Assembly (NCBI GenBank): GCA_029688905.1
Contig: JARULB010000003.1
Coordinates: 62,001-126,000, forward strand
Reading direction: 5' to 3'
Length of the DNA stretch: 64,000 nucleotides
Source: Balneolales bacterium ANBcel1
GTDB lineage: Bacteria > Bacteroidota > Rhodothermia > Balneolales > Natronogracilivirgulaceae
Part shown: positions 15,248 through 61,784 of the stretch, piece after piece
Numbering within the stretch: the stretch's first letter is position 1
Layout: every line of letters starts with the position of its first letter
The notes under the pieces: generated by a model
The model's database searches: none
Told to the model about the DNA's origin: nothing
What the model saw: the letters and a program-made list of their open reading frames with translations, nothing else
Position numbers and translations under genes: made by a program

Positions 15248-16570
15248 ATGAGGATCATCAATCCACGGAAACAAGTATCGATGACCGAACCGCACACTGA
15301 CTACCATACCGGACATCCACGCTTCCGGACACTTACCCTCGCCGCGGCTGCCGTTTCACTAATTTTTATTGCCGGCTGTGATATCAGCGGGACCTCCTCC
15401 GATCCGGAACCCCCGGGCCAGCTGCGGGAATTATCCGCCCAGGAACAAGTACTGGTTGAAGGATCCAATGACTTTACTTTCCGGCTGCTTGAAGCCATTG
15501 CCGAAGGCACTCCGGAAGAAAGTTTTTTCGCGTCGCCCCTGAGTATCTCCATGGCGTTCGGAATGGCACTGAACGGTACCGACGGGGATACCTACACGCA
15601 GATGAGAGACTTTTTCGGTCATGACGGATTGTCGAATGAAGAGATCAACCGTGCCTTTCGCGACCTCATCGGGATACTGACCGACCTTGACCCGCAAGTG
15701 CGCATGGAGATCGCTAATTCAATCTGGTACCGCAAGGGCTTTGAGGTGCTACAAGAGTTTCTCAATACAAATGCAGAGTACTTCAACGCCGAAATTGCCG
15801 ATCTGGATTTCGGCGACCCGGCCGCGCCGGATATTATCAATGGCTGGATTGAGGAAGCCACCGAAGGCCTCATTGAAGAGATGATTGAAGCAATCGGTCC
15901 GGATGTCGTCATGTACCTGATCAACGCCATCTATTTCAAGGCCGACTGGACCGTGCAGTTTGATCCCGACGACACCCGTGACAGGCCCTTTACCACCGGT
16001 TCCGGCGACCTCGTTGAGGTACCCATGATGCGGGTTAAAGATGAATTCCGGTTCTATCAGAACGATCACTGGCAGGTTGTTGACCTCGGATATGGCGCAG
16101 GAGGCAGTTTTTCGTTCATTGCCATGCTTCCAAGAGATGAAGACGATCCGGGCAGTTTTTCCGGATCACTTACCCTCCAGCAATTTGAGTCCCTCACCTC
16201 CCGCCTGCAGAATGATACGGTGGAAGTGCACATGCCCCGGTTCGAAATAGATTTCGATTACGAAGATATCATGTTTGATCTGTATGACATGGGACTCACA
16301 ATACCATTCCATCCGGGTCAGGCCGACTTCAGCCGGATCAACCCCATGGAATCGCTGTTTATATCGAATGTTATGCACCTGGCGGTTATCAAAGTGGATG
16401 AGGAAGGCAGCGAAGCGGCGGCGGTAACGGTAATCGAGATAGTACGGACCTCCGCCGGCGGCCCTTCCCACAAGATTATTCGCCTTGACCGGCCGTTCCT
16501 CTTTTTCATCCGGGAAAACAGCAGCAACACGATTTTATTCATGGGGAAATACGCCGGTCCGGATGCCTGA
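15248..16570 (+). CDS. Serpin-family protease inhibitor, lipoprotein
   Basis: A 440 aa serpin. The signal sequence ends in a lipobox (IFIAGC), so the inhibitor should be lipid-anchored. The fold signatures are NDFTFRLLEAI, FASPLSISMAFGMALNGTDG, NAIYFKADWTVQFDP and the C-terminal DRPFLFFIRENSSNTILFMG. The hinge EEGSEAAAVTV has the small residues needed for loop insertion, so it should be inhibitory. Counting from the hinge puts the scissile bond near Arg-Thr-Ser, suggesting a trypsin-like target, but register is uncertain by a residue or two. The start is supported by GGAGG. It probably guards the cell surface against secreted proteases. Confidence 0.93.
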   Translation: MRIINPRKQVSMTEPHTDYHTGHPRFRTLTLAAAAVSLIFIAGCDISGTSSDPEPPGQLRELSAQEQVLVEGSNDFTFRLLEAIAEGTPEESFFASPLSISMAFGMALNGTDGDTYTQMRDFFGHDGLSNEEINRAFRDLIGILTDLDPQVRMEIANSIWYRKGFEVLQEFLNTNAEYFNAEIADLDFGDPAAPDIINGWIEEATEGLIEEMIEAIGPDVVMYLINAIYFKADWTVQFDPDDTRDRPFTTGSGDLVEVPMMRVKDEFRFYQNDHWQVVDLGYGAGGSFSFIAMLPRDEDDPGSFSGSLTLQQFESLTSRLQNDTVEVHMPRFEIDFDYEDIMFDLYDMGLTIPFHPGQADFSRINPMESLFISNVMHLAVIKVDEEGSEAAAVTVIEIVRTSAGGPSHKIIRLDRPFLFFIRENSSNTILFMGKYAGPDA

Positions 16571-56389: not shown

Positions 56390-59300
56390 TTATTTGATTA
56401 CGGTCATCCGCCGGGTTTTACTGAACTCCGGGGTGGTCATGCGGTAGATGTAGACACCACTGGCCAGGTTCGAGGCATCAAATTGCACCGTGTGGGTACC
56501 GGCCGTCATCTTATCGCTAACCAGTACTGCCACCCGGCGGCCCAGTATGTCGTAGACCGTCAGGCGCACATCGACCTGCTCGGGCAACTCAAACTGGATG
56601 GTGGTAACCGGGTTGTAAGGATTCGGATAGTTGCGGTGCAACGTCAACTTGTCGGGTGTTTCTTCTGCCAACTTCTTCCGGGCCCGTTCTACCCCCTCGG
56701 CGATTTGCTTTCCGTACATGTGGTCAATATGTTTGGCCAGTTCGAAATCAGGGTAACGTACCATGAGTTCCCCGAAATAACGGGCGCCTTGATGAACGCT
56801 TCCCAAGCGATTGAAGTGTATATAACCCAAACCAAAAAGTGCATTTTGGTGTAACATCGAATCTTCAGAAAAAAACTCATTGATATATTCATAATTCTTC
56901 ACAGCCTGTTTATAATTCCCACCACGTATCAAAAATTGGCTTTCAAGGTCCATAATGACCGCATACAGGCGATCTGTGTTGGAAAGACTGCTTCGAATCT
57001 GACGATCCATGTAGTTGGAAAAGTCCTGAACCCGACCTTGCTGCTGCCAGGCCTTGGCCATCACATGCAAAATAGTACTGCGCAGTTTAAATGATTCTGC
57101 CTCTTTATATAAACGTTCCAAATGAACAAGAGCTTCTTCAGTTTCCTTTTCTGCTAATAAGACAAGTACCTCATATAAATCCTGTTCATTTATTTCAGAT
57201 TCTGCTTCAGTCTGATACCCACCTGCTACTTTAGGAGATACAGGGTCACACTGCAAATTCGATGGAGTCCATATATGACAGGCATTTTGTGATGTTGATG
57301 CGGGATTGTATGAAATAAAGCCACCAGATGATGTTGTGAAATTGGAGGCACTTGGTGAAGAACTCCCATACCAATTATTTTGACCATATACCCAGGCATT
57401 ATTTGCAGCAGATATATGAAAACCCGGGTCATGGTAAGTCCAAAAATCATTATTCGAAAAACTGACCACTCCGGGACTCAAAGCATTAATTCCGGTTGGA
57501 TTATTGGCAAGCACATTAAAATACATCGTATTCACTGTAGCACCGACCATTTGAATACCCCGCAGTGAATTCCCAAAAATTTCATTTCCAACTAAATGTA
57601 TATCAGAATATATGGAAGCGATACCGGTCGAATTATTATTTAGTTTGCTGTACTCAATCGACATGGATGCATAGCCAAAATATACACCAGTATTATTATT
57701 CTTGATTTTTGAATTTGTTATTTCTGGTGAGGCACCATTGGCATATACGCCATTATTAGCATGGCGGATATCACAATAATTAAGATATCCCGAAGAGCCA
57801 GGCTGAAATTGGACTCCTGACCACCCCCCGGAAGAACCGGTTTGTTGTAAATAAATATAACCGAATCCTGATCCACCATTAAAATATGCGTGTCCATATA
57901 TGGTAAAACCCTGATCAGGGTCAAAACGCAAATCTGCTCCGGGACGGATTTCAATTTCCCCGCCACTGTCCACCAAAAACCGGGTAGCGTCGGAGGTGGT
58001 GCCTTCGAGAATAATGACCTTTCCGCCATCGCGTACCCGGATGCGGCCGCCTTCGATATTGGTTCCACTATCAATGGTTAGCGTGCCGTCTACCCGAAGC
58101 TCCCCGTAGACAGTAGTATTAGACCAGAAAGCCTCATGCATTACGATCTCATCAGACATGGCTACCGAGGCACCGCTTTGGATGGTTACGGTGCGGCTGG
58201 GATTTATCGTGGTGGTGCCGGTGTATGTGCTGGTGTTAATGGTTTCACTGGAAGTGAAGGTGTGGTCTTGGTGAAAATGAGACAACGGACTACCCACTAT
58301 CGAAAAAGCGATTGTTATGGCTCCATCTTGATTGATATTTGGGTAGTAACCGGCTTGGTCTAATTTCTTGGGTACATAATCATACTGTTGATAATCCCAA
58401 ATGTACATTTCAACATCAAAACCCTCGTTATCCACATTTGTAATTTCCACCGATTTGGCATAGCGATCATAATTATTAACAGGATATTTACTGAAACTTA
58501 CTCTTTCAAGGGAAATTGGTGCCCCGGAAGTACCATTGTAGCGTAACCATACATCCGGTTGCGATATTAACTCCTCATTAAAATCCACTCTCAGCACAGC
58601 TTTCTTTAACTGCGCTGATGTTATTTGCATCTGAGGATGAATAGGCATTGAGCTTTGATCATATCCTTTTAATTCCACGGTTGTATTTTCATTAGGAAAA
58701 ACCGGCTGTACATCAATGACCTCTACATTATTGGCGGTGCTTACTTCATAATGATGGATATCATTGGTGCTCACAAAATCAAGGGCTGCCTCAGCGTTGA
58801 TATATCCCGCGCCTAATGCGGAGTCGTGACCTGGAGCTACATCACCCGCTGTTAATTTCAGAACTTTCTGGATGTCTTCGGGTTTTAAATCCGGGTTCAC
58901 ATCCAGCATTAAACTGGCCACACCAGCCCCGATCGCGGCCGCGGCGTATCCACCACCAAAACTCGTGGTATAACTGTCTGTCGCCTATCCGGTTGTAGCC
59001 GCCACATTTTTTCCATAGGCCGCCACATCGATATAGTCGGCTTCGTGGCCGTTATTAAATGATATGAAATTTTGACTATCATCCATATACCCGCCGGCAA
59101 CCGTAAGCGTGGATTTGTCCATGGAACCAGGGATCAGATAGTATTTTTGATCGGTGCCCGGAGCAATCTCCCCGGCCGCCGCCACCTTTAGCTGATCGGC
59201 CATATACGCATCGATAAGCCTTTCCCGAAACTGGACATGGGCGGCCGGCGGTGTATAACCGGAATAAAACAGGCCTTCGAATGCCTGGGACAGTATGCTA

Positions 59301-59971
59301 CGTATCATGTCCAGCATTCTCTCCTCTGGTGTTGGTGGAAGTTCCGGATAGAATAAGTCATCCATTGAGGGCAAATCTGCCATTTCATAAATCCCTAATT
59401 CCAAAACCGGCAAAGACTCAATATCATCTATACGGGAGGTTGGCAGACCGAATCCAAAAAGATGTATGTCGTTTTCATCATCGATGGCCTGTTGCACCAT
59501 TGTCGTGGCTTCTTCAAAGCCGGCATAGTAGTCGGTATTATCCCACGAAAATATAAAATCCGAATCATCACCCGAAGCCGCCTCCCGAAGGAAACTGTAA
59601 GAGCGCATATTTGCCGCCCAGTTGATCCCGGCAATACCGATACCGTTATCGACATTTGCCCCCAAAATTCCGGCCATTTCGGTGCTGTAATCCTGTTCTG
59701 GCATAAACAGCCCGGCATGATACGGATTGGCATAAAAACGACCCTGCATATCTTCATGCACCGCTGAAGCCCCCAGAAGAGAATGTATGGCAATGCGTTG
59801 ATCGCTATGGCCTGTCGTAAAATTCCAGGCCTGGTCAATGTTATGCACTTCGAATAAATAATCCTGCGAGCCATCCATGACATAGGGATCATTCGTTTGC
59901 CCATGCGCGTTGTGGGCATTTGCAAACCAGTATATGGTTACTGCTGCTAACCAAAAGTATATTGTTTTCAT
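56390..59971 (-). pseudogene. Subtilase-fold protein with lost catalytic triad, beta-helix and T9SS sorting domain; interrupted by an in-frame TAG
   Basis: One 1193-codon frame is broken only by TAG at 58987-58985. The N-terminal part (59971-58988) has a signal peptide ending near AHGQ and a subtilase-like domain. The His loop HGTHVAG reads YSTEMAG, the Ser loop GTSMAAPH reads GGYAAAAI, and the Asp strand IAIHSLLGAS lacks Asp. After the stop come the rest of the subtilase core, a right-handed beta-helix-like repeat region (about codons 560-860), a helical TPR-like part, and a T9SS type A domain (NYPNPYNPVTTIQFELP to the end). The peptidase was inactive before the stop arose, or the stop is read through. 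Confidence 0.8.
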
Positions 59972-60022: not shown

Positions 60023-61132
60023 CTACCTCTCTATGGATACCGGGATAGGGTCTTGTGTGGATAAATCGGGAAATTCGGGTAGATAGCCGGGCAGGTCCGG
60101 CCAGAGCGGTTCGGTCTGGCCGGTTTCCAGGTTATGGCGAAAAGGCACATACTGCGTGCGGCCATAGCCGTATATATCCCGCAGAAAAATGAGCTCTGTG
60201 CTGTCATGGTTCCAGCTGACGGCCCCGGAACCTCCCGTGGTGATTTGTACCGGGTCGTTATCCCCATCGTATAAAAAAAGCTGCATGGAGTTATCCCAAT
60301 GTTTGTTAACCGCGATGCGCTCCGAGCGGGGATCGGCACTAAAGGTACGAAGCACCCCGCCTGTACTATTTCCCGCTCCCAACTGATACATGGTCACCCA
60401 CTGCCAGTCGCCGGTAGTTCGGTCGTACCGTACCATATTCATAGCAATATCATTTTCCGGATCTGCATGCTGACCCCAAATTATTTGTTCATGATTACCG
60501 AACATATTGCTGGATCTCCAATCCGTCACCGGGCCTTCAAATTCTCCGGTTTCTATATCCAGAAAGTATCCGCCCAAATCATACTCTTGCTGGTAGGAAA
60601 TAGTGTTCACCGTAAACAATATCTTTTCATCATTGGCAAACCACTTGGGAAAAACCTCACTCTGTTTGTTAAATATCGGATGATCGGGCTGGCCCGTCCA
60701 CTGCTTATAGCTGTTTTCTTCCAGGTTTAAGGTGACTATATACGAGCTTATTCCCAGGGATAAGCCGACGGCCAACTCCCGGTTATCCATCGACCAGTCG
60801 GCATTGTAGATCTGGGAGGTGATATAGCGGGGATTTTCTCCGTTTTTATCCACGATCCAAAGCTGATGATACGGAGCAAACGGTTCATCGGCCGGCCTGT
60901 GCCGTACAACATAATAGTGTTGCCCATCATTACTTTGGCCGATATTAAACAAAGATTCCACTCCTTCCGGCGCGCTTCCCCATCCATACTCGCCCGGCTC
61001 AAACGGGTCTTCCCACTGGAAGGGGTCATCCCAGGGGCTTTCCTCCTCCACGCCATCATTATGATCCACGGTATCACAGGCCGAAAACAAAAACAGAAGG
61101 GGTATTATATGGGGTGGTAATTTTAACATCAT
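60023..61132 (-). CDS. Beta-propeller (PD40/TolB-like) lipoprotein
   Basis: A 369 aa protein with lipobox LFSAC at about residue 19 and an acidic Trp/Pro-rich linker (EEESPWDDPFQWEDPFEPGEYGW). Repeated blades of the TolB/PD40 kind follow: QLWIVDKNGENPRYIT, SQIYNADWSMDNRELAVG, SEVFPKWFANDEKILFTV, TFSADPRSERIAVN, GAVSWNHDSTELIFLRD. Such propellers usually bind proteins or peptides. It lies 51 bases upstream of the pseudo-subtilase on the same strand, so they may be co-expressed. Confidence 0.82.
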   Translation of the reverse strand: MMLKLPPHIIPLLFLFSACDTVDHNDGVEEESPWDDPFQWEDPFEPGEYGWGSAPEGVESLFNIGQSNDGQHYYVVRHRPADEPFAPYHQLWIVDKNGENPRYITSQIYNADWSMDNRELAVGLSLGISSYIVTLNLEENSYKQWTGQPDHPIFNKQSEVFPKWFANDEKILFTVNTISYQQEYDLGGYFLDIETGEFEGPVTDWRSSNMFGNHEQIIWGQHADPENDIAMNMVRYDRTTGDWQWVTMYQLGAGNSTGGVLRTFSADPRSERIAVNKHWDNSMQLFLYDGDNDPVQITTGGSGAVSWNHDSTELIFLRDIYGYGRTQYVPFRHNLETGQTEPLWPDLPGYLPEFPDLSTQDPIPVSIER

Positions 61133-61254
61133 AGAGATATGTAATCTAATTTAATCAGATGATTCACAGGTTCCCGGCGGTTTATCCCGCTAAACTCGTT
61201 GTTGTCTGAACGATATGGCCCAGGTCCGGTCATGATCATTTTTACTGCCTGCTT

Positions 61255-61656
61255 TTATTGCGTTTGTAAACTCTGCTCTTCCCTTATATCAGCTACAAGC
61301 ACGCTTGTGCACAAGAATTTCAGGTCTGGTTCTCTAACCGACATCACTATTGAAGGATAATGACTCATGGGATTGACACCCGAATATTCCAGATTCAGAT
61401 CATCCATCAAATGTAACAGTTGCTCATGCCTGGCTTCGATTTGCTCACGTTGTTCAGCAGCCTCTTCTTCGCTTAGCAAGCCTTCCCGGGAGTATTCCAT
61501 ATCATGAGTTACCCATATCCGAAGTGAACCCTTATCCCGAATCTTTTCAAACAACTCCTCATCGCAATGATTGAAGCCTTCATTGTTTTGCGAAAGTATG
61601 CTGTCGCAACTGTTGGAAAGCAGCATTGATATTATTATCAGTGATACTTTTTTCAT
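61255..61656 (-). CDS. Small exported protein resembling a stand-alone subtilase propeptide (I9-like inhibitor)
   Basis: A 133 aa protein. The hydrophobic signal sequence has a weak lipobox (LLSNSC). The remainder follows the beta-alpha-beta-beta-alpha-beta order of subtilase propeptides: strand LRIWVTHDM, helix SEEEAAEQREQIEARHEQLL, strand LEYSGVNPMSHYPSIVMSV, short helix REPDLKFLCTS, strand VLVADIREE. Spacing and small motifs (EGLLS, AAEQR, P-SIVM-V, VLVADIRE) agree with I9 domains fused to bacterial subtilases. The pseudo-subtilase nearby has no propeptide of its own. The assignment is by eye only. Confidence 0.6.
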   Translation of the reverse strand: MKKVSLIIISMLLSNSCDSILSQNNEGFNHCDEELFEKIRDKGSLRIWVTHDMEYSREGLLSEEEAAEQREQIEARHEQLLHLMDDLNLEYSGVNPMSHYPSIVMSVREPDLKFLCTSVLVADIREEQSLQTQ

Positions 61657-61784
61657 GTGCTAAAAAATTTAGATTAAGCGGACACATGCAATTACATGAC
61701 CGGTTTTATTCATGCTCCTGTGTGTCGGGACTTTTGCCCGGTCATGTTCATTTCATCATATTTACTCCCTTTTTATTAATGAGG

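Follow-up and report, generated by a model that had tools for sequence, protein, structure and literature searches.

A stand-alone, subtilase propeptide-like lipoprotein and candidate protease inhibitor in a member of the Balneolales

A small gene on the minus strand of the Balneolales bacterium ANBcel1 genome (positions 61255–61656 of the window, i.e. the whole 64,000-nucleotide stretch analysed) raises the question of what role a subtilase propeptide may have when no protease is attached to it. An earlier note on this DNA had described here an exported 133-aa protein, resembling an I9 (subtilase propeptide) domain, with no protease of its own and located beside a pseudo-subtilase devoid of a propeptide. 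Position and frame were confirmed exactly: the ORF has an ATG start and 133 codons plus a stop (included in the coordinates), is intact and is bounded by stop codons. Since the frame contains no S8 motif, its product is a separate protein lacking the protease domain. Residues 1–17 (61606–61656, minus strand) constitute the N-terminal signal sequence, which is hydrophobic and terminates at a putative lipid-modified cysteine, Cys17. Because this residue is placed at the signal end and is identical in all 6 members of the closest group of stand-alone proteins, the sequence indicates that the protein is probably a lipoprotein anchored via Cys17 and not simply exported; its lipobox (S-N-S-C) is weaker than those of the relatives (e.g. 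V-S-G-C and I-T-G-C). Compared with a 58% identical copy in genome G003, 26% of the nonsynonymous but 80% of the synonymous sites differ (pN 0.26, pS 0.80; no ratio is given, the synonymous sites being saturated), which indicates constraint on the protein. The gene is flanked, at 61226–61241 and 61738–61753, by a 16-base direct repeat (94%), the core of which, CCGGTCATG, is present 7 times in the window (0.7 expected), with 3 of these copies around the gene.

The relationship to propeptides was revealed by comparison with other genomes of the order. A single-sequence search of the whole genomes of relatives gave matches to the N-terminal ends of two long frames, one in G010 (E-value 2e-9) and one in G028 (3e-9), both being subtilases with intact Asp, His and Ser motifs in which the homologous segment occupies the propeptide position; the G010 frame terminates in a T9SS-type tail. 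The same search detected stand-alone homologues in G003 (58% identity) and, at 31–38%, in G003, G060, G070 and G008. When two separately built profiles were compared, one of 6 Cys-type stand-alone proteins (see below) and the other of 10 attached propeptides, they matched with 98.4% probability (E-value 4.4e-15) over 94 columns. A profile search located the domain in 15 of 129 genomes of the order, where reading of the frames gave 11 intact stand-alone copies and 12 protease-attached copies with S8 motifs in their frames; outside the order, one genome in a sample of 395 from the phylum matched, within a 950-residue frame. On this sequence evidence, residues 33–133 (61258–61560, minus strand) are homologous to protease-attached subtilase propeptides, in agreement with the I9-like identity proposed earlier.

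Database models were far less sensitive. Searches of Pfam, NCBIfam and PDB sequences with the single protein gave no I9 match (in Pfam none at an E-value of 10), and the Pfam I9 model (PF05922) matched 0 of the 12 relatives tested. As the latter included attached propeptides of intact subtilases, this silence reflects a limit of the model; the window protein does not reach the gathering score and is not filed as a member of PF05922. A profile search of the PDB gave a weak row for the subtilisin E prosegment (E-value 0.2), as well as designed pentatricopeptide repeats, which were matched via one short helix and judged spurious. The sole Pfam I9 match in the source genome (window positions 16340–16456, E-value 0.08) was rejected, being antisense within a serpin gene. 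This gene (15248–16570, plus strand), recognised by eye, encodes a 440-aa lipoprotein serpin, and the window thus likely holds a second lipid-anchored protease inhibitor.

An AlphaFold prediction for the window protein, built on an alignment of 22 sequences, had a mean pLDDT of 91 and a pTM of 0.80, with secondary structure elements in the order H-E-H-E-E-H-E. The best structural matches were subtilase propeptides (3afg, Z 8.5; 3cnq_P, Z 7.1; 1scj, Z 6.9; 1spb, Z 6.6), and the stand-alone inhibitor POIA1 (1v5i_B) matched the model at Z 7.1. Z scores of 6–8.5 are not decisive alone; because unrelated ferredoxin-like folds also score near Z 7 and Foldseek E-values are weak (best 0.04), the fold supports the assignment while sequence homology carries it. 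The protein is predicted by this model to have the subtilase propeptide fold, similar to that of MEROPS I9 (clan JC); the earlier note had singled out the fold as the check, and no alternative fold was seen.

The model also agrees with known propeptides at its C-terminus. Its last residue (residue 110 of the model) aligns with residue 77 of 3cnq_P and 1spb_P and with residue 76 of POIA1, and the last propeptide residue of 1scj_B likewise meets the last residue of the window protein, an alignment that serves as a test of length and register and says nothing on binding. The tail (residues 125–133, REEQSLQTQ; 61258–61284, minus strand) thereby ends in Gln133, the equivalent of the terminal P1 residue of subtilisin propeptides. 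The C-terminal tail is the part of the propeptide reported to insert into the cleft of the active site and to modulate potency (PMC10580911). Folding of an attached propeptide together with its catalytic domain gave a pLDDT of 54; the propeptide part of this model was usable, with helices and strands in the same order as in the window protein, and the model was uninformative on docking.

The 11 intact stand-alone copies share this end point closely but differ in their cysteines. The residue equivalent to P1 is the exact end of 6 of them, and the other 5 end 2–4 residues later (a few tails trimmed in the alignment were read from the frames instead). Apart from the lipobox cysteine, the window protein has two cysteines, Cys31 (codon at 61564–61566, minus strand) and Cys116 (61309–61311, minus strand), which may form a disulfide. 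All 6 members of one stand-alone group, the window protein among them, have both, and neither occurs in any of the 16 other rows of the alignment (in G003:C149 the first cysteine is shifted by a gap in one alignment and in register in another). The pair is thus absent from all the attached propeptides, as well as from the other 5 stand-alone proteins. Within the group, the lipobox and the two cysteines are common to several genera of two families.

We consider it fairly probable that the window protein is a subtilase propeptide which has no protease and acts as a membrane-anchored lipoprotein inhibitor of subtilases. The anatomy fits such a role, with the chain ending at the active-site position of a propeptide and a cysteine pair found in stand-alone forms only. 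In the mechanism that we propose, the lipoprotein would be located in the periplasm or at the cell surface, where its helix-sheet face would dock onto the catalytic domain of a subtilase, and its last residues would occupy the active-site cleft in a product-like manner, inhibiting the enzyme in trans. The Cys31-Cys116 pair would lock the fold in the absence of a templating protease. Eukaryotic stand-alone propeptide mimics, and SUB1-ProM, inhibit or regulate a subtilase (PMC6993865). Against this reading are the slightly atypical lipobox of the protein itself, the silence of Pfam I9 and the weak Foldseek values; in addition, the truncated relatives (G003:C371 and the second copy in G003:C13) are consistent with decay.

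As for the target, the source genome encodes, in the region of C5:108822–109703, one intact S8 protease, which has an N-terminal extension of another type, in addition to the dead one in the window, and no protease with a propeptide of the window type was detected in it. Similarly, G003, G008, G060 and G070, which have stand-alone proteins of the Cys type, gave 2 to 8 S8 matches each, none with this propeptide (the G003 and G008 genomes are about 80% complete). Canonical Pfam I9 propeptides were found on subtilases in G008, G060 and G070, with none above the cut-off in the source genome or G003. In view of this lack of a matching protease, the target may be another subtilase of the organism itself, perhaps the one intact subtilase of the source genome, or a foreign one from outside; it is probably not the adjacent dead subtilase.

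The evolutionary data bear on both the inhibitor reading and its strongest rival, that the gene is a remnant of a decayed subtilase which lost its protease domain and persists without function. In an unrooted tree of 23 domains, well-supported branches force at least 3 changes, in either direction, between the stand-alone and attached states; for example, the stand-alone domain of G008 and the attached domain of G010 are sisters with support of 100/98. At one syntenic place, G028 has two barrel genes followed by a full subtilase, whereas in G031 two similar barrel genes are followed by a stand-alone domain only. Additional copies of the stand-alone form, truncated or partial (L017 2818–3069, L065 2419–2724 and L021 3–173), adjoin intact ones in G003:C13 and in G008:C315, the latter being cut by the contig start, while the partial copy in G003:C371 stands alone; truncated copies are present in G047, too. 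These extra copies suggest local duplication. The repeated switches of state, the G028/G031 pair and the truncated copies in G003 and G047 would all be expected of remnants. In contrast, the window gene is intact, its frame stops cleanly at the propeptide boundary and its protein sequence is conserved relative to the G003 copy, and the occurrence of the lipobox and two cysteines across genera and two families indicates features added or kept after the separation from the protease. We therefore regard loss of function as unlikely, although it retains more weight than the possibilities considered below.

The remaining explanations concern the neighbouring genes. A beta-propeller-like lipoprotein (369 aa, with a weak match to the TolB propeller; 60023–61132) and a T9SS-tailed subtilase (56390–59971) are encoded on the same minus strand as the I9-like protein, with gaps of 122 and 51 bases separating the three genes; no promoter or terminator signals were found between them, which is uninformative either way. 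As the earlier note had stated, the subtilase has no propeptide, its S8 domain beginning right after the signal peptide, and it is catalytically dead, the Asp, His and Ser positions all being replaced (3 of 3 catalytic residues lost). In-frame stops occur at different places in the pseudo-subtilase genes of the window (TAG at 58985–58987, minus strand) and of G043 (TGA, L070 3912–3914), and these stops may reflect read-through, errors in sequencing or genes that have become pseudogenes. In G043 (L070 5963–6745) and G047 (L071 3274–4017), the gene for the propeller lipoprotein is followed by an outer-membrane barrel-like gene that is absent in the window. In G078, one strand (L084 5396–10633) encodes an intact lipoprotein subtilase with a canonical I9 domain and, downstream of it, a propeller lipoprotein and a pseudo-subtilase retaining Ser.

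Because related pseudo-subtilases adjoin related or similar propeller lipoproteins in G043 and G078, which represent two other genera, the pseudo-subtilase and the propeller lipoprotein form a unit of their own. A profile search of the order detected no relative of the I9-like protein in G043 or G078, and no relative of the pseudo-subtilase was detectable in G060, G070, G008 and G003, which have the stand-alone protein; in G060, G070, G008 and G003:C149 the latter is flanked by unrelated genes. Subtilase neighbours of the stand-alone copies were also sought; the only one detected was an S8 gene in G060, at a distance of about 4 kb. A conserved neighbourhood of I9-like protein, pseudo-subtilase and propeller was thus not found across the relatives, and the dead subtilase is probably not a dedicated partner of the I9-like protein. 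There is a small chance that an I9-bearing lipoprotein, the propeller and the dead subtilase assemble at the surface into one complex, with the dead subtilase retaining the inhibitor or letting it go. If so, a pseudo-enzyme would switch protease inhibition, with the I9 domain being free in the window and, in G078, fused to an active lipoprotein subtilase. The proposal of the earlier note, that the free propeptide, dead subtilase and propeller lipoprotein constitute a protease-control or decoy unit, draws on the closely spaced window genes and on the gene order in G078, but it was not supported by the comparison, given that each part occurs without the other in the genomes above and that a stop codon interrupts the window pseudo-subtilase gene; we now consider it very improbable. 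We give equally little credence to the idea that the protein is a split-off propeptide which helps a separately encoded subtilase to fold without lasting inhibition: propeptides attached to a subtilase not only inhibit it but also act as intramolecular chaperones (PMC6993865, PMC10580911), and an intact subtilase is kept in the source genome, but that enzyme carries its own, different N-terminal extension, a lipid anchor is ill-suited to a one-use helper of a T9SS-secreted enzyme, and no propeptide-less intact subtilase lies beside the stand-alone copies examined, save for the S8 gene in G060, which encodes a lipoprotein.

Among known systems, the inhibitor that we propose resembles the stand-alone I9 inhibitors POIA1, YIB2, SPI-1, TgMIC5 and SUB1-ProM in being a separate protein without a protease domain. 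POIA1 is, like the window protein, a small stand-alone subtilase-propeptide fold (residues 20–110 of the model correspond to residues 1–76 of POIA1), but it is eukaryotic, and it is the window protein that has a lipobox and a cysteine pair. TgMIC5 and SUB1-ProM, of apicomplexan parasites, are also propeptide-like proteins outside the enzyme; they are protist proteins whose target is known, whereas the window protein adjoins a dead subtilase. Bacterial subtilase propeptides (those of subtilisin BPN' and E, Tk-SP and Tk-subtilisin) have the same fold, length and end point, but the window protein differs from them in having no protease in the chain, in being a signal-anchored lipoprotein and in its cysteine pair. 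The propeptide of SpBcA from Bergeyella cardium, likewise a member of the Bacteroidota in the wider sense, belongs to an S8 enzyme of T9SS type and reportedly resembles I9 in neither sequence nor structure (PMC11982257), unlike the window protein with its predicted I9-like fold.

Stand-alone propeptide inhibitors are known from fungi, plants and protists and may reflect convergent evolution, while protein peptidase inhibitors are relatively sparse in prokaryotes (PMC6993865). No description of a bacterial lipoprotein version was found in the literature searched, the coverage of which excludes most subscription journals. The characterised stand-alone propeptide inhibitors that we found are eukaryotic, and the window protein would be a bacterial, lipoprotein variant of them. 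With free and attached forms of one family present in a single bacterial order, the transition from propeptide to inhibitor is open to direct test, including whether the added cysteine pair enables the domain to fold alone.
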